NCBI GenBank assembly: GCA_903845935.1
Contig: CAIMZI010000079.1
Span: 1-64,000, forward strand
Direction: 5' to 3'
Length of the DNA stretch: 64,000 bases
DNA from: an uncultured beta proteobacterium
GTDB taxonomy: Bacteria > Pseudomonadota > Gammaproteobacteria > Burkholderiales > Burkholderiaceae_C
Below the pieces are notes generated by a model. That model had not been told where the DNA came from. It was given only the letters and a program-made list of their open reading frames with translations, and did not search any database. Shown here in pieces: positions 32,257 through 40,601 of the stretch. Every line of letters starts with the position of its first letter. The stretch's first letter is position 1. Position numbers and translations under genes: made by a program.

Positions 32257-33322
32257 ATGTCAAGCCCGTTGCATCGCTTTCTCCCGCACTGGCCGGATTG
32301 GCGCGATCGATGGCAGCGCCTGGCCTGGCTTTCAATGATTCTATGGTCGGTTCTCGCGGGTCTGATTGGCGCTTTTGCCACAGAATCGTTCCGCCTGTCG
32401 ATGTATTGGGGTGATCGCGTTTTGCTGGGGCAGGGCGGAAGCCTGGTGGCACTGGCGCGCAGTCTGCCTCCGCTGCTGCGCGTGCTGGCACCGGCACTGG
32501 GTGGCGTGTTAGCCGGTCTGCTGTTGCTGTGGGTAAACCGATTCACGGTGGCCGGCAGCAAGACCGACTATATGGATGCCAGCACCATGGGGGACGGGCG
32601 TATACCGATTGCCTGCGCCTGTTGGCTTGCCCCTGCGCCTGGGGCTGGGCGGACTGGTGGTGGGACTGGTTTCCTGGGTCTGGCCCCAGGCGACTTCGGC
32701 TCCTTTCGCCTATGGCATTGTCGGCATGGGTGCATTCCTGGCCGGTTCCACACAGGCGCCCTTGATGGCCGTCCTGATGCTGTTTGAAATGACCCTGAGT
32801 TACCAGGTGATGTTGCCCTTGATGTTGAGCTGTGTGATGGCCTATTTTGTGGCGCGCGCCACCAATGCCGGCTCCATGTATGACATCACGCTGCGCAGAC
32901 TGGCCCAGAGTGACGAACGCCAGCGACTACGCAAGCAACTGGTACGCGACCTCATACAGCCAGCAGCCACTGTCGTGGCCTTGGACGCCGACCTGGATTG
33001 CATGGCCCGGCTGTTTGCGCTGCATCCGGTGAAGTACCTGTATGTGGTCGATGCCCAGGGCCGTTACCAAGGCGTGGTGCCACTGCGCAAACTCAGTGCC
33101 GCTGAAGCCGAGAGTGGACTGCAGGGTCACAGCGCATCGGATTTTCTGAGTCAGGAAATTCAGCCACTGACGAGTGACATGGCACTGGACACTGCCTTGC
33201 GGTGCTTTATGGCACACCCGGGTGAGCGTTTGCCGGTGGTCCAATCGTTGGCCTTGCCCCGTTTGATAGGGGTAGTGAAGAAAAGTGCCTTGCTGCAGAC
33301 CTTTGTGCGCTTGAGTGTGTGA
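32257..33322 (+). pseudogene. ClcB-like voltage-gated chloride channel, internally deleted and frameshifted
   Basis: N-terminal half in frame of 32257 (to GDGRIPI); C-terminal half plus CBS region in frame of 32576 (RLPAPVGLPLRLGLGGLVVGLVS|WVWPQATSAPFAYGIVGMGAFLAG); GREGP and GxFxP motifs absent from both. Confidence 0.75.
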
Positions 33323-33389: not shown

Positions 33390-34214
33390 ATGCTGAACGT
33401 GAATCTAGGTCCCTTTGCTGTGCAAGTCAGCCACTTGCTTGGCTTGCTGTCCTTGTTGGTGGCGGCCGGTGTTGGACATCTGGTCGGACGGGCTCAGAAA
33501 ACGGGCATAGTCAAGGTCTTGGTGGACATGGTCTTGGTCGCCATGCTGGTGGCCCGCTTGGTATTTGTTGCAATCTGGTTTGACACCTATCGCCAAGCAC
33601 CCTGGTCCATTTTTGATATCCGTGACGGTGGCTTTACGCCCTGGGCAGGATTGCTTGCCGGTCTGCTGGTGGCCGTGATGCGCGCTAGCAAGAGCCCGCC
33701 ATTGCGCAAACCGCTGAGTCTGGGCCTGATAGCGGGAGTGCTGGCATGGGACATGTCGGGTGCGTCCGGAATGATCGGCCTACACACCTTGCCCACGCTT
33801 GGCTTTACGACGCTAGCGGGAGAGTCAACGCATCTGGCTGCCTTGTCTCAGGGCAAGCCCATAGTGGTCAATCTGTGGGCCACATGGTGCCCTCCCTGCC
33901 GCAGCGAAATGCCGGTTCTTGCCGCCGCGCAAAAACAGGAAACCGGGGTGCGTTTTGTCTTCGTCAATCAGGGCGAGGACAGGGCTGTGGTCCAGCACTA
34001 TCTCCGGTCTACCGGGTTCGAACTGGCCAACGTGCTGATCGATCCGAGCGCCGGCCTTGGTCACGAAATTGGCTCCAGTGCGCTGCCGACAACGCTTTTC
34101 TATGACAGCGCCGGACAGCTCATCGACACCCATCTGGGTGCGCTCTCGGCCGCCTCGCTCACGAGTCACTTGGCATCTCTGCTTGCCCTCAAAAATCCTT
34201 CCGCCAAGAAATAG
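33390..34214 (+). CDS. Membrane-anchored TlpA-family thiol-disulfide protein with Lgt-like N-terminal membrane domain
   Basis: N-terminal TM region with WSIFDIRDGGFTPWAGLLAG (Lgt-like); C-terminal VVNLWATWCPPCRSEMPVL thioredoxin motif. Confidence 0.85.
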   Translation: MLNVNLGPFAVQVSHLLGLLSLLVAAGVGHLVGRAQKTGIVKVLVDMVLVAMLVARLVFVAIWFDTYRQAPWSIFDIRDGGFTPWAGLLAGLLVAVMRASKSPPLRKPLSLGLIAGVLAWDMSGASGMIGLHTLPTLGFTTLAGESTHLAALSQGKPIVVNLWATWCPPCRSEMPVLAAAQKQETGVRFVFVNQGEDRAVVQHYLRSTGFELANVLIDPSAGLGHEIGSSALPTTLFYDSAGQLIDTHLGALSAASLTSHLASLLALKNPSAKK

Positions 34215-34439
34215 ACGGACCATGCTTGCGACGCCATGTCGGGCACCTTCGGCAACGAGAAATTGACGACCCGGGCTTTGAAGGGTTTGCGGGCATGCGG
34301 AAATGACACGCTCTGGCCTAGTGCGCAGACTTAAGCAGGCCTTAATACGAGTTCTCCGTCACGAAACAGACACATGTAAATACTAACTTTTGGATTCCCT
34401 AAATCCGTGGGCATAACCGATGCTAGGGCAAACCCCTGG

Positions 34440-34509: not shown

Positions 34510-35967
34510 ATGGCGAGAATAGTAGTTCTGGGAGCCGGCATCGCCGGCCACACAGCGGCTAGGCATCTGCATTTATGGCTAGCCAAAGAACACGAGATCG
34601 TCGTCATCTCACCGAATCCCAAGTGGAATTGGATTCCCTCCAACATCTGGGTGGGCGTGGGGCAGTTGACCGAGAAAGATGTCACTTTCGATCTTGCGGA
34701 AATCTACAAAAAAACACGCATTGACTTTCATCAGGCCAAGGGCCTGTCAATTCATCCCGAGGGCAATGTGGCCAGCGCCCGCCCTTACGTCACCGTGGAG
34801 TCCACATCACCAGGGTCGGAAGGTCAGCTTGAAAACATCGACTACGATTACCTGATCAATGCCACCGGACCCAAGCTGAATTTTGGCGCAACTGAAGGGC
34901 TGGGCCCTGAGCACGGTCATACCGTGTCCGTATGTACTGCCGGTCACGCCAAAGAGGCCAATGACCAGCTTCAGGCCATTGTGGACTCACTCCAACGGGG
35001 CGAGAAGAAAACCATTGTGATCGGAACCGGTCACGGTACCTGCACCTGCCAGGGCGCAGCCTTTGAATACATCTACAACGTAGACCATATCCTTCGAGAA
35101 GCAGGCGTGCGTCATAACGCCCGCATCGTGTGGCTCAGCAATGAATTCGAATTAGGTGATTTCGGCATGGGCGGCGTTCATATCCAGCGCGGCGGTTACA
35201 TCACCAACGGGAAGACTTTCGCCGAATCCTTGATGGTTGAACGAGGCATCGAATGGATTATTCGTGCGCATGTGAGAAAGGTAGAAGCGGGCAAGATTCA
35301 TTACGAAACGCTGGATGGAATTTTCCATGAGCTGGATTTTGATTTTTCGATGCTCATTCCACCATTTAGTGGCGTTGGACTGAAAGCCTTCGACAAGGAG
35401 GATAAGGACATCAGCTCTCAGATATTTGCTGCCAGTGGTTTCATGAAAGTCGACGCGGATTACACGGCAAGGCCGTATGCAGAATGGAGCGCCAATGACT
35501 GGCCGCAGACCTATCAAAATCCCACGTATGGGAACCTCTTTGCCATTGGAATTGCATTTGCCCCACCGCACCTGATCAGCAAGCCCATGCAAAGTGCCAA
35601 TGGCACTCCCATAAACCCAGCACCGCCGAGAACGGGAATGCCTTCGGCTGCCATGGCGATTGCAGTTGCAAAAAGCATCAGGGACATGATTGCCGGCGCG
35701 AAGAAGCCCACCCACACAGCCTCTATGGCCAAGATGGGCGCCGCCTGTGTGGCTTCAACCGGCGCACATTTTTTCAGGGGCTCTGCGGCCACCATGACGG
35801 TTTACCCGATAGTGCCTGACTATGAAAAGTATCCGGAATACGGCCGCGACTTAGAACTCACCTTTGGTGAAATAGGACTTGCAGGGCATTGGATGAAAAC
35901 GCTGCTCCACCATACCTTTATCTATCAAGCACGCATGTTCCCCGGCTGGCGACTGCTTCCAGACTAA
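34510..35967 (+). CDS. Sulfide:quinone oxidoreductase-like FAD-dependent oxidoreductase
   Basis: IVVLGAGIAGHTAARHL Rossmann motif; HTVSVCTAGHAKEA, GTGHGTCTCQGAAFEY and KMGAACVASTG at positions resembling the SQR redox cysteines. Confidence 0.8.
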   Translation: MARIVVLGAGIAGHTAARHLHLWLAKEHEIVVISPNPKWNWIPSNIWVGVGQLTEKDVTFDLAEIYKKTRIDFHQAKGLSIHPEGNVASARPYVTVESTSPGSEGQLENIDYDYLINATGPKLNFGATEGLGPEHGHTVSVCTAGHAKEANDQLQAIVDSLQRGEKKTIVIGTGHGTCTCQGAAFEYIYNVDHILREAGVRHNARIVWLSNEFELGDFGMGGVHIQRGGYITNGKTFAESLMVERGIEWIIRAHVRKVEAGKIHYETLDGIFHELDFDFSMLIPPFSGVGLKAFDKEDKDISSQIFAASGFMKVDADYTARPYAEWSANDWPQTYQNPTYGNLFAIGIAFAPPHLISKPMQSANGTPINPAPPRTGMPSAAMAIAVAKSIRDMIAGAKKPTHTASMAKMGAACVASTGAHFFRGSAATMTVYPIVPDYEKYPEYGRDLELTFGEIGLAGHWMKTLLHHTFIYQARMFPGWRLLPD

Positions 35968-35997
35968 CCAGGTTTCAATGTCACCAAAGGATCAACC

Positions 35998-36156
35998 ATG
36001 AGCAAGCCCGTCAATAAAGAGCCCTATCAGCAAGCTTATTACCCACCCGTTCCCACGGGAATTACATGCCACATGCGAAGCAATGTCATCTGGCAAATTT
36101 TCAGATTTTTCGTCATCAACCTGAAAATGTTGAAGCTCATGAGGAAGTCTCACTAG
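35998..36156 (+). CDS. Small 52-aa protein downstream of the SQR-like gene (not in supplied ORF track)
   Basis: ATG with AAAGGA upstream; MSKPVNKEPYQQAYYPPVPTGITCHMRSNVIWQIFRFFVINLKMLKLMRKSH*. Confidence 0.65.
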   Translation: MSKPVNKEPYQQAYYPPVPTGITCHMRSNVIWQIFRFFVINLKMLKLMRKSH

Positions 36157-36189: not shown

Positions 36190-37542
36190 CTATGGCATGG
36201 ACTTCAGCTTGCGATACAGAGAACGCGTGCTGATTCCCAACTGGCGTGCCAGTTCGCTCCGACTGCCTGAGTGCTGGGCAACCAGTTGGGCCAGTGCAGC
36301 ACGCTCCGCATCCTTTAGCTTGGCCTGACTGGGAGCTTCAGAACGCACGGCTTGGCCGAGCTCTCCAGACTTCTTTGCGGGCAAGGAAATTCCCCCGACC
36401 CTCAGGGCACGTTCGAGATGGCTGCTTTCCAATACATCGCTATCGCACAGCAGTGAGGCCCGCTCAAGCATATTGCGCAGTTCGCGCACATTTCCAGGAA
36501 AGCGTTGCACCTGCAGCAAGTGCTGCGCGGAGGCGCTCAGGGACAGCTTACGTTGGGGACTCATGCGCTTCAATAGTGCCGAACTCAATAAGGGAATATC
36601 GTCTCTGCGCTCGCGCAGTGCCGGTAGGTAAATGGGAAAGGTGCTCAGGCGGTAATACAAGTCCTCGCGGAATGTGCCATCGGCCACCATCTGGCCTAAA
36701 TCCCTGTGGGTCGCCGAAACAACGCGAATATCCGCGTGGCGCAGCTCGGTGCTTCCCACTCTGCGGTAGGTACCGGATTCGAGCAGGCGCAGCAGTTTGA
36801 CCTGAATGGTCAGCGGAATATCACCCACCTCGTCCAGAAACAAGGTCCCGCCGCTGGCTGCCTCCACCAGTCCGCCGCGCGCGGTAGCGGCCCCGGTGAA
36901 TGCACCGCGTTCATGGCCAAACAATTCGGATTCAAACAGATTTTCCGGCATGCTGGCACAGTCCACGGCCACCAGTGGACGGTGCGCGCGCGCACTTGAT
37001 GCGTGTACCGCTTGTGCCACCAGCTCCTTACCGGTGCCAGACTCTCCCAGCAGCAGCACGGTGGCCATGGAGGGTGCCACACGCGCCACCAGGGCCAGCA
37101 TTTCCCGAAATACAGGTGATCTTCCGATGAGTCCTTTGCCCGCCGATCGCTCCTGCGTCACCCGCAAGGGCTCCATCTTTTCCACGTAATAGGCTTGCTT
37201 ACCAGCGGCATCGGCAATCGGAGTCAGCTCGATCTGTATGTACTCCTCACCCTTGGCTGTGTGGTGCAGATGCATGACGCGTTCGCGTTGCCCGGATGCA
37301 CGCGCCTGGGCCAGTGGGCAGGACTCTCCAGCCTGGTCACAGGGCATGCTGAAGTGATGGGACACCTCATAGCAGGTCCGTCCCACCACGCTTTGTGACT
37401 GGCTGAATTGCTGGCGGTATGCGGAATTGGCTGCCAGGATGCGATAGTTCGCATCAAACAATATGTGGGGTTCGCTTAAGCCCTCCAGGAAGGACATCAA
37501 CTCCGGCAGTGGCTTCACGAGAATCCTTTTTGGGGCGGTCAT
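36190..37542 (-). CDS. Sigma-54-dependent transcriptional regulator with N-terminal Cys-containing PAS domain
   Basis: [35 protein letters not shown]-terminal Fis-type HTH; PAS with [23 protein letters not shown]. Confidence 0.92.
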
Positions 37543-37547
37543 CAGCT

Positions 37548-37582
37548 TATGCCATCTACGGCATAGGGTGCCAATTATGGCA
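37548..37582. promoter_or_regulatory. Two tandem TGCC-N6-GGCA dyads (candidate enhancer sites for the sigma-54 regulator)
   Basis: TGCCATCTACGGCA (37550-37563, extended TATGCC..GGCATA 37548-37565) and TGCCAATTATGGCA (37569-37582); centres 19 bp apart. Confidence 0.5.
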
Positions 37583-37669
37583 GCTTCCTTCTTGTCACTT
37601 TGTTTCGCTGGCCACCCGTCTGTGGCTCCAAGCCCATGAATTCATTGACCTTTCCCCCCACTTGGTTCA

Positions 37670-37685
37670 TGGCACGGTTCTTGAT
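37670..37685 (+). promoter_or_regulatory. Sigma-54 (-24/-12)-like promoter for the cyd operon
   Basis: TGGCACGGTTCTTGAT versus TGGCACG-N4-TTGCW; mismatch at the -12 GC. Confidence 0.4.
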
Positions 37686-37714
37686 TGAAAATACTGGCAT
37701 ATGTATTGACCGTC

Positions 37715-37897
37715 ATGAACTTTTCCGACAAATCCCTGCTCAACAAACTGGCTGTGATGCTGGTTTTCAAGCTCGCCATCCTAGTGGCGCTGTGGTGGGT
37801 GTTTGTGCGGGAACAGCGCGTGACCGTCGATGACAGCGGCGTTGCCGCTCAACTTTTGCACCCCGCAATTGCTGCTACACAAGGAACAAATAAATGA
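37715..37897 (+). CDS. cydP: CydP-like putative cytochrome oxidase small subunit
   Basis: MNFSDKSLLNKLAVMLVFKLAILVALWWVFVREQRVTVD; overlaps cydA start. Confidence 0.75.
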   Translation: MNFSDKSLLNKLAVMLVFKLAILVALWWVFVREQRVTVDDSGVAAQLLHPAIAATQGTNK

Positions 37898-39453
37898 TTT
37901 CGGAACAACTGGTAGATCTGTCGCGGTTGCAGTTTGCCGCCACAGCGCTGTACCACTTTCTCTTTGTGCCACTCACCATCGGCATGGTGTGGATGTTGGT
38001 GATCATGGAGAGCGTCTATTTAATGACGGGCAATGTGATCTGGAAAGACATGACGCGCTTCTGGGGCAAGCTCTTTGGCATCAATTTTGCATTGGGCGTC
38101 ACCACCGGCATCACGCTGGAATTCCAGTTCGGCACCAACTGGGCCTATTACTCGCATTACGTGGGAGACATCTTTGGCGCACCCCTGGCCATCGAAGGGC
38201 TGATGGCCTTCTTCCTGGAATCGACCATGATTGGCCTGTTCTTCTTTGGCTGGGACCGGCTTAGCAAACCCCAGCATTTACTGGTCACCCTGCTGATGGC
38301 CGTGGGCACCAATCTGTCGGCGCTGTGGATTCTGATTGCCAATGGTTGGATGCAAAACCCAGTGGGTGCGGAGTTCAGCTACCAGACCATGCGCATGGAG
38401 ATGACCGATTTCTGGGCCGTGCTGTTCAACCCCGACGCACAGGCCAAGTTTGTGCACACGGTGTCGGCCGGCTATGCCACCGGCGCCATGTTTGTGCTGT
38501 CGATTTCCAGCTGGTATCTGCTCAAAAAGCGGAACGTGGAATTTGCCAAGCGCAGCTTTCGCGTGGCCGCCGCCTTTGGTCTGGCCTCGGTGCTGAGCGT
38601 CATCGTGCTGGGTGATGAATCGGGCTACACGGTAGGTGAGGCGCAGCAAACCAAACTAGCTGCCATGGAAGCCATGTGGGAGACCAAGCCTGCACCGGCA
38701 GGACTGACGCTGGTAGCCAGCATCAACGAGGTCGAACAGAAGAACAACTGGGAGATTGAAATTCCTTGGGTCATGGGCGTGATTGGCACGCGCTCGCTCA
38801 GCAAGGAGATTCCCGGCATTCACGAGATCAAGGCCAAGAACCGCGAGCGGATTGTGCGTGGCATCATCGCCGTCAATGCACTCGAAGCACTGCGCACCAA
38901 CCGGCAGGACGCGGTGGCCAAGCAGGTATTCGAGGAGCACAAGACAGACCTGGGTTTTGGCCTGTTGCTTAAAAAATACGTGGTCGATGTCAACACCGCC
39001 ACCCCCGAGATCATCGAGCGCGCCGTCAATGACACCGTGCCACGCGTCACTCCCATGTTCTGGGCCTTCCGTCTCATGGTCTCACTGGGATTTTCCATGC
39101 TGCTGCTCTTTGGTTTGGCCTTCTGGAGTACCTTGAAGTCGGCCTGCATGGGCAAGCCTTGGCTACTCAAAGTTGCGCTGTGGATGCTGCCCGCACCCTG
39201 GCTGGCCTGCGAGCTGGGCTGGTTTGTTGCCGAGTACGGCCGCCAGCCCTGGACCATCTATGGCGTGCTGCCCACGCACCTGAGTGTGTCAACACTAAGC
39301 GTCAACAGCCTGTATGGCTCACTGGCCGGATTCATCGGCTTCTACACCGTGCTGCTGGTGGTCGAGATGTTCCTGATGGTCAAGTTCGCCCGTATGGGCC
39401 CCGGCAGCCTGGGCACCGGTCGCTATGTCAACGAGCCGCAGTTTCATGCTTAA
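37894..39453 (+). CDS. cydA: Cytochrome bd ubiquinol oxidase subunit I
   Basis: LSRLQFAATALYHFLFVPLTIGMVWMLVIMESVYLMTG; long Q-loop; PAPWLACELGWFVAEYGRQPWTIYGVLPT. Confidence 0.97.
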   Translation: MISEQLVDLSRLQFAATALYHFLFVPLTIGMVWMLVIMESVYLMTGNVIWKDMTRFWGKLFGINFALGVTTGITLEFQFGTNWAYYSHYVGDIFGAPLAIEGLMAFFLESTMIGLFFFGWDRLSKPQHLLVTLLMAVGTNLSALWILIANGWMQNPVGAEFSYQTMRMEMTDFWAVLFNPDAQAKFVHTVSAGYATGAMFVLSISSWYLLKKRNVEFAKRSFRVAAAFGLASVLSVIVLGDESGYTVGEAQQTKLAAMEAMWETKPAPAGLTLVASINEVEQKNNWEIEIPWVMGVIGTRSLSKEIPGIHEIKAKNRERIVRGIIAVNALEALRTNRQDAVAKQVFEEHKTDLGFGLLLKKYVVDVNTATPEIIERAVNDTVPRVTPMFWAFRLMVSLGFSMLLLFGLAFWSTLKSACMGKPWLLKVALWMLPAPWLACELGWFVAEYGRQPWTIYGVLPTHLSVSTLSVNSLYGSLAGFIGFYTVLLVVEMFLMVKFARMGPGSLGTGRYVNEPQFHA

Positions 39454-39464
39454 CAGGACGCACT

Positions 39465-40601
39465 ATGTTTGACTATTCAACTCTCAAAATCATCTGGTGG
39501 CTGCTGGTCGGTGTTCTCTTGGTCGGCTTTGCCATCATGGATGGACACGACATGGGTGTGGGAACCCTGCTGCCCTTTGTTGGGCGCAACGATCTGGAGC
39601 GCCGCGTTGTCATCAACACGGTGGGGCCGCACTGGGACGGCAACCAGGTCTGGTTCATCACCGGTGGAGGCGCCATCTTTGCCGCTTGGCCTCTCGTCTA
39701 TGCCACTGCATTTAGCGGCTTTTACTGGGCCATGTTGGTGGTGCTGTGGGCGCTGTTCTTCCGCCCGGTGGGCTTTGATTACCGCAGCAAGATCCACAAC
39801 GCCACTTGGCGCAGCACCTGGGATTGGGGGCTGTTCATTGGCGGCTCGGTGCCTCCGCTGATCTTTGGCGTGGCCTTTGGCAACCTGCTGCAGGGGGTTC
39901 CCTTCCAGTTCGACCTCTACATGGTCTCCACGTATACAGGCAGCTTCTGGCAATTGCTCAACCCGTTTGCCCTGCTGGCCGGTGTCGTCAGCAGCGCCAT
40001 GATCACCCTGCAAGGTGGCGCCTATCTGGCCCACCGCACCGAAGGCATTATTCAGGAGCGCACCATCCGGGCGGCAACGGGTGCGGCGCTGCTGATGGTG
40101 CTGGCCTTTGTGGGCGCGGGCTTCTGGCTGCAAGGCATTGACGGTTACCGGATTGCCTCCGTCATCAGCACCAACGCCTTGCCAGACCCCATTGCCAAGA
40201 CGGTGGTCCGCGAGGCCGGTGCCTGGATGGTGAATTACGGCAAACAACCGCTGCTGTGGCTGCTGCCTGCTCTGGGCATTGGCGGTGCGTTGCTGAGCGC
40301 CTTGCTGCTTCGTCTGCGCTGGACCCTGAGTGGCTTCGTGGCCTCCTCGCTGGCCGTGCTCGGAGTCATCGGCACGGCGGGCGCGTCGATGTTTCCCTTC
40401 GTCATGCCGTCGAGTTCCATGCCGGCTGCGAGCTTGACGGTGTGGGACAGCGTGTCGAGTCACCTGACCCTTGGCATCATGTTCTGGGCCACCATGCTGT
40501 TCATGCCCCTCATCATCCTTTACACCTCCTGGGCCTATAGTGTCATGCGCGGCAAGGTGACGGCGGCCTACATCCGGGAGAACGACCATGCTGCTTACTA
40601 A
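39465..40601 (+). CDS. cydB: Cytochrome bd ubiquinol oxidase subunit II
   Basis: DYSTLKIIWWLLVGVLLVGFAIMDGHDMGVGTLLPFVGRND. Confidence 0.97.
   Translation: MFDYSTLKIIWWLLVGVLLVGFAIMDGHDMGVGTLLPFVGRNDLERRVVINTVGPHWDGNQVWFITGGGAIFAAWPLVYATAFSGFYWAMLVVLWALFFRPVGFDYRSKIHNATWRSTWDWGLFIGGSVPPLIFGVAFGNLLQGVPFQFDLYMVSTYTGSFWQLLNPFALLAGVVSSAMITLQGGAYLAHRTEGIIQERTIRAATGAALLMVLAFVGAGFWLQGIDGYRIASVISTNALPDPIAKTVVREAGAWMVNYGKQPLLWLLPALGIGGALLSALLLRLRWTLSGFVASSLAVLGVIGTAGASMFPFVMPSSSMPAASLTVWDSVSSHLTLGIMFWATMLFMPLIILYTSWAYSVMRGKVTAAYIRENDHAAY

Follow-up and report, generated by a model that had tools for sequence, protein, structure and literature searches.

A sulfide:quinone oxidoreductase gene and its constant 52-residue companion in an uncultured beta proteobacterium

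Sulfide:quinone oxidoreductases (SQRs) are described as single-subunit enzymes (PMC10892978). A 64,000-nucleotide stretch of DNA from an uncultured beta proteobacterium, here called the window, raises the question of whether one class of them has a second component. An SQR-like flavoprotein gene in the window is followed by a short open reading frame (ORF); an earlier note, made from the letters alone, took the C-terminal half of its product for a possible membrane-docking or subunit peptide. We asked what the large protein is, whether the short frame is a gene and whether its product belongs to the enzyme. The answer is a known enzyme type whose obligate small partner has apparently gone unrecognized.

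A sulfide:quinone oxidoreductase with an extra cysteine

The large gene and its landmarks are as follows.
34510–35967, plus strand: SQR-like flavoprotein gene, most likely type IV (SqrD-like), 485 aa (ORF reading, PDB sequence and fold matches, alignment)
34933–34935, plus strand: codon of Cys142 (SVCTAGHA), a canonical SQR cysteine (invariant in 82/82 homologues, aligned with the type I cysteine)
35041–35049, plus strand: Cys178-Thr179-Cys180 (CxC), in which C180 is the canonical central cysteine and C178 is extra and family-specific
35746–35748, plus strand: codon of Cys413 (GAACVAST), the third canonical SQR cysteine (conservation and type I alignment)
35884–35934, plus strand: single C-terminal amphipathic helix, residues 459–475 (AlphaFold model; alignment with 13 type I SQRs)

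The mechanical ORF opens at 34420; the ATG at 34510 has a GAGGAG ribosome site before it and opens the conserved N terminus MARIVVLGAG. The protein carries the FAD-binding Rossmann motif GAGIAG at residues 8–13 and matches Pyr_redox_2 above cut-off. Its best matches in a PDB sequence search were the SQRs of Aquifex and A. ferrooxidans, and its predicted structure (AlphaFold, pLDDT 81) returned SQRs as all of the top 19 Foldseek matches (best E 8e-29, TM 0.8 by target). By sequence and predicted fold, the large protein is a sulfide:quinone oxidoreductase, with sulfide-dependent quinone reduction as its predicted activity. Flavocytochrome c sulfide dehydrogenase (FccB) was ruled out: there is no match to the FCSD flavin-binding Pfam family, and the 52-aa product of the partner gene has no CxxCH heme motif and is not a cytochrome c.

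The coding sequence ending at 35967 and the cysteine contexts quoted in the earlier note are all present, SVCTAGHA, HGTCTCQG and GAACVAST supplying C142, C178, C180 and C413. Its statement that a CxC occupies the central redox position stands in part: the CxC is there, but the canonical cysteine is retained as C180 and one extra invariant cysteine, C178, precedes it. C142, C180 and C413 correspond in the alignment to the three redox cysteines of SQR (C128, C160 and C356 in A. ferrooxidans); C180 aligns with the central cysteine of the A. ferrooxidans and Aquifex enzymes, and C178 is an additional residue brought by a one-residue insertion. All of the 82 close homologues keep the four cysteines, which are also invariant in a wider alignment that includes Sulfurovum and Marivivens. 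In the alignment, C178 is absent from type I SQRs and invariant in the window family.

Across bacterial and archaeal genomes, a scan gave 80 loci with 67–81% identity to this SQR, 79 of them over essentially full length. The homologues lie mainly in Gallionellaceae/Sideroxydans, Mariprofundus, Thiobacillaceae, Chromatiaceae, Rhodocyclus and some alphaproteobacteria; each of the six Chromatiaceae genomes searched holds the window-type SQR together with one weak second match. Two Chromatiaceae, Thiocapsa roseopersicina and Thiodictyon syntrophicum, are reported to have SqrD and SqrF (PMC5944118, PMC10892978), and PMC5944118 names one SqrD (THSYN_04215) and one SqrF (THSYN_09305) in T. syntrophicum. 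The second SQR of T. roseopersicina is SqrF, with 375 aa and V331, C332, I333, F366 and W369 as numbered in PMC9666304, a match that rules out type VI (SqrF) identity for the window family. The T. syntrophicum genome has two window-family copies, one on the chromosome at 0.968 Mb and the other on plasmid pTs485, besides a single SqrF-like gene at 2.193 Mb, and the SqrD/SqrF ratio of map positions (0.441) agrees with that of locus tags (0.453). Because both species hold SqrF plus the window family, and because these ratios agree, the family is most likely the type IV SQR, SqrD, of the literature, an assignment made by elimination in Thiocapsa and Thiodictyon. Type I identity is ruled out by the absent second C-terminal helix and by the insertions. 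The window genome does encode a type I-like SQR as well, on a different contig; over the first 290 residues it is about 37% identical to the window SQR.

Two upstream neighbours are recorded here. A TlpA/ResA-like thioredoxin at 33390–34211 lies directly upstream of the SQR gene, and its N-terminal membrane part matches prolipoprotein diacylglyceryl transferase (LGT, residues 5–100). A ClcB-like chloride channel at 32257–33322 appears broken, through either a pseudogene or an assembly error, with an N-terminal-looking part at 32257–32787 and a C-terminal part (profile 361–573) in another frame at 32576–33322.

The small ORF is a gene that accompanies this SQR

Downstream of the SQR gene lie the following features.
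35968–35997, plus strand: 30-nt gap from the SQR stop to the small gene, holding the small gene's ribosome-binding site (no terminator found)
35998–36156, plus strand: gene of the 52-aa small protein, obligate SQR partner (tblastn, synteny, genome co-occurrence, dN/dS)
36085–36150, plus strand: basic amphipathic helix of the small protein, residues 30–51, core WQxxRFxxxNxKxxKL (model; conservation)

The unlisted ORF with a good ribosome-binding site that the earlier note placed at 35998 is real: it begins 30 nt past the SQR stop, with AAAGGA upstream, and is conserved. The tblastn search proposed there placed it directly downstream of the SQR gene in essentially every relative. A pattern search recovered it in 79 of 81 SQR loci, the remaining two contigs ending too early (L074 has 165 bases past the SQR gene, and L085 is cut inside it). 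The two genes are thus syntenic in 79/79 loci with a readable small gene, and the small gene adjoins in all of about 150 SQR gene copies with readable downstream DNA. A reversed small-protein consensus gave 0 matches against 79 for the forward one. Spacing from the SQR gene ranges from 16 to 278 nt across loci, and most starts have an AGGA-type site.

The linkage extends to whole genomes. Of 399 genomes drawn evenly from the phylum, 25 had the SQR, and these same 25 had the small protein; among 146 genomes of the T. roseopersicina family, the same 51 had both. Neither sample contained a genome with one and not the other, and the co-occurrence holds despite a divergent SQR in one genome (G514) and a broken one in another (G224). 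The small gene, annotated 'hypothetical protein', also adjoins the SQR gene on plasmids of Thiodictyon syntrophicum, Marivivens (Alphaproteobacteria) and Sulfurovum mangrovi, the last being the one plasmid that represents Campylobacterota.

Substitutions in the small gene are concentrated at third codon positions, and a median dN/dS of 0.28 over 699 unsaturated pairs indicates purifying selection. The earlier note had named poor conservation beside orthologous SQR genes, or lack of purifying selection, as what would count against a linked peptide; we found 1:1 co-occurrence, synteny and constraint. The 52-aa ORF is a real gene, and these three lines of evidence together strongly support a role of its product as a companion or subunit of the SQR.

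A short arm and one basic amphipathic helix

Members of the small-protein family are 38–59 aa long, with the consensus NKEPYQQAYYPPxPTGFTRYMRTSLxWQxxRFxVINxKMLKLMxKSHH. AlphaFold, run on alignments made up of the non-plasmid rows, predicts an extended N-terminal arm, a short helix (residues 21–28) and a longer helix (30–51), with a mean pLDDT of 86. The longer helix has a hydrophobic moment of about 0.3 and a hydropathy of about 1.3 over 19 residues. Because this hydropathy is below that of a typical transmembrane span, the modelled helix is more likely interfacial than membrane-spanning. The net charge of the window protein is about +7.

The arm varies more than the helix. It is replaced in Sulfurovum and Marivivens, and in G514 (locus L220, C229:13000-16500) a highly divergent SQR that keeps GTGHGTCTCQG is followed by a partner of about 38 aa, MNYTLTHTVKRLNGNVFWQFWRFIILSFKFMKLTRQGT, which lacks the Pro/Tyr arm and retains the WQFWRF..KFMKL helix. 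The irreducible part is therefore the helix around WQ-x2-RF-x5-K-x2-KL, and L220, as an intermediate, helps to define the minimal partner.

None of 66 members gave a credible match to Pfam or NCBIfam, and there was none between the window protein and PHROGs or between the small-protein profile and PDB sequences. Named small families, including CydX, CydP and DUF1641, were considered and set aside for want of a profile match. A literature search for a small protein or anchor of SQR found no publication, a weak sign of novelty, and the SQR literature, in the parts available, makes no mention of a small partner for this family.

A FisR-like regulator and cytochrome bd genes beside the pair

Beyond the small gene, the window continues as follows.
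36190–37542, minus strand: FisR-like sigma-54 activator (PAS, AAA and HTH_8), downstream of the pair and convergent with it
37318–37374, minus strand: C-x10-C-x6-C motif of the regulator's sensor domain, also present in L045, L060 and L062
37670–37685, plus strand: sigma-54 promoter-like site TGGCACGGTTCTTGAT, 11/12, before cydPAB
37715–37897, plus strand: cydP, cytochrome oxidase putative small subunit (NCBIfam NF045611, above cut-off)
37894–39453, plus strand: cydA, cytochrome bd subunit I
39462–40601, plus strand: cydB, cytochrome bd subunit II (TIGR00203, above cut-off)

Within 36190–40601 the regulator is divergent from cydPAB, with the near-perfect site at 37670 (one of only two sites of at least 11/12 on both strands of the 64 kb), an arrangement that suggests control of cytochrome bd by sulfane sulfur. 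No site immediately in front of the SQR gene scored above 9/12, either in 18 loci or in the window. The regulator resembles FisR in its sigma-54 AAA domain, Fis-type HTH, three sensor cysteines (C-x10-C-x6-C) and adjoining sigma-54 site. We take the cysteine spacing to be that of C53, C64 and C71 of Cupriavidus FisR. Judged by these motifs, the regulator is FisR-like, with a putative response to sulfane sulfur.

Three further loci (L045, L060 and L062) share the order fisR (divergent), sigma-54 site, cydA, cydB, small ORFs, SQR gene and small-protein gene; their sigma-54 sites, between fisR and cydA, score 10–11/12, and by eye the small ORFs after cydB resemble cydX and ybgE. The order cydAB–SQR recurs in L057 and L037. 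Overall, cyd genes lie near the pair in six loci besides the window and FisR in four, a minority. Because most loci lack cyd genes within their flanks, the cyd/FisR linkage is not part of the core unit.

FisR is reported to activate the sqr/pdo operon under sulfide, and cytochrome bd to be refractory to H2S and encoded by sulfide-induced genes (PMC7315123). The window regulator differs from the FisR described there with a pdo-sqr operon in adjoining cydPAB and a type IV-like SQR. In the window genome, induction of cydPAB probably depends on a FisR-like sulfane-sulfur sensor together with sigma-54; were this induction sulfide-dependent, as we infer, SQR electrons would exit via a sulfide-tolerant cytochrome bd. 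The Gallionellaceae order, fisR followed by cydAB, sqr and the small gene, probably represents a sulfide-induced route from H2S through SQR, quinone and cytochrome bd to O2. A search of the window genome for dsrA gave no match above cut-off.

The pair is laterally mobile

In the tree, the window SQR is sister to that of a Limnohabitans metagenome-assembled genome (support 99/94), inside a mixed group of betaproteobacterial and alphaproteobacterial sequences. A window-type SQR is missing from each of 36 further genomes of the window organism's genus, which hold only relatives at 37% identity. This absence, together with three plasmid-borne copies of the SQR and small gene (L116, on Thiodictyon plasmid pTs485, L117 and L118), shows that the two genes form a laterally mobile cassette and travel together. 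The Thiodictyon plasmid copy, a second one besides that on the chromosome, lies near IS4 and IS91 transposases. Two scans of viral contigs found no relative, and a phage-borne origin was dropped.

Two apparent fusions were also seen. L221 (G496 C8:64800-66400, minus strand 1284-475) joins SQR residues 1–250 in frame to the small-protein helix, with C178 replaced by Ala; because G496 has two further pairs, it is probably a deletion remnant. A 4,232-aa 'fusion' ORF in G180 is an artefact of masked N.

A candidate two-subunit enzyme and its alternatives

What might the small protein do? In an alignment with 13 type I SQRs, those of the window genome and related genomes end in two C-terminal stretches, GKWVHLAKIAFEKYF... 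and then SEPIYEKYVLKALGI..., and the window family stops right after the first, ...GHWMKTLLHHTFIYQARMFPGWRLLPD. The small protein is in essence one basic amphipathic helix and always accompanies an SQR that lacks one, suggesting replacement of the helix in trans. We consider it reasonably probable that the pair is a two-component SQR in which the 52-aa protein is a dedicated subunit supplying the second C-terminal helix. The large protein would bind FAD and oxidize sulfide to protein-bound polysulfide via C142, C180 and C413, plus C178, which may serve as an extra sulfur relay or as a disulfide partner beside C180; electrons would pass to quinone. The extended arm (NKEPYQQAYYPPxPT) of the small protein probably grips the SQR in a physical complex, and its helix would sit at the membrane interface, close to where quinone enters, taking in trans the place of the second amphipathic helix that type I SQRs have in cis. 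The 'subunit' part of the earlier proposal, in the broad sense of a companion or subunit, is strongly supported by linkage and selection, and 'membrane-docking' fits the anatomy, that is, the basic amphipathic helix, its charge and low hydropathy and an SQR without a second helix, with docking itself the more conjectural part.

Published work bears on this model from both sides. The C-terminal region of SQR is credited with membrane binding and the quinone pocket, and a type VI SQR from which the helix had been deleted stayed membrane-bound (PMC9666304), so anchoring may be less important than shaping of the quinone pocket. As a counterpoint, type VI SQR, with a single C-terminal helix, works without a known partner. 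The wider claim, that type IV SQRs are an unrecognized two-subunit class in which a subunit of about 52 aa docks the membrane and quinone in trans and the extra cysteine modifies sulfur-relay chemistry, we hold at even odds.

The small protein could instead help to assemble or mature the enzyme, for example by promoting FAD insertion or delivery to the membrane, without remaining part of it; obligate linkage and strong conservation would suit such a dedicated chaperone no less than a subunit. We regard this as unlikely, since a protein of 38–59 aa with one arm and one amphipathic helix looks more like a small respiratory subunit, and exactly one amphipathic helix is what the SQR lacks. That the ORF is a by-product of a conserved DNA element (a leader peptide, a remnant or noise) might be suggested by its shortness and its lack of a name in databases, but is scarcely credible given amino-acid conservation across classes and in a second phylum, purifying selection, its own ribosome site and its retention across gaps of 16–278 nt.

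Other readings accept the small protein and assign the pair a different task. The extra invariant Cys178 and the insertions relative to type I SQR might indicate another reduced sulfur or selenium compound as substrate, with CxC as a persulfide or polysulfide acceptor site; relatives of iron oxidizers commonly carry the enzyme, and two such strains are reported not to grow on sulfide (PMC4643136). Against this, which we judge improbable, every canonical SQR cysteine is retained, and the same enzyme is most likely the SqrD of purple sulfur bacteria, whose green-bacterial counterpart is reported to give most SQR activity there (PMC3368242, PMC4584964). The genes beside the pair, cydAB and FisR in the window and upstream in L045, L060 and L062, and cydAB also in L057 and L037, would accord with a small protein that tethers SQR to cytochrome bd in a sulfide-oxidizing supercomplex. 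This too is very doubtful, because the retrieved flanks of most loci contain no cyd genes and the small protein is retained in purple sulfur bacteria whose SQR serves photosynthesis.

Implications and comparison with known systems

A two-component SQR would matter beyond this locus. In green sulfur bacteria, type IV SqrD is reported to be the principal SQR for sulfide oxidation; many purple sulfur bacteria and relatives of iron oxidizers also have it. SQRs are regarded as single-chain enzymes, and an overlooked obligate subunit would bear on the expression and assay of type IV SQRs. If the subunit is real, it also affects views of membrane and quinone binding and the annotation of sulfide oxidation in environmental genomes, in which the small gene offers a tiny, specific marker for this enzyme class.

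Among known SQRs, the window enzyme shares with type I (A. ferrooxidans 3KPK/3T31, Aquifex 3HYV) its fold (Foldseek E about 1e-28), FAD domain and three cysteines, but differs in having the extra Cys178 with its insertion, several further insertions and one C-terminal helix instead of two. Type IV SQR, represented in the literature by Allochromatium vinosum Alvin_2145, Thiodictyon THSYN_04215 and Chlorobaculum CT0117, is reported to be a relative of type I that shares its three cysteines (PMC4584964), which is also true of the window SQR. Type VI SqrF of T. roseopersicina also has one C-terminal helix according to PMC9666304; it differs from the window SQR in being 375 aa long, with cysteines at 49, 121, 272 and 332 and about 30% identity, and is the other SQR in the same Chromatiaceae genomes. 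The neighbours of SqrF, Alvin_1196 and Alvin_1197, have been proposed as its membrane anchors (PMC10892978), an analogous idea with other genes. Unlike SQRs in the literature, every window-family SQR gene has a small partner. That partner recalls CydX, CydP and YjlC (the partner of the NDH-2 YjlD; a YjlC–YjlD model is among the PDB matches of the SQR model in Foldseek), tiny or accessory membrane-associated partners of a quinone oxidoreductase or oxidase, but it has no sequence relation to them.
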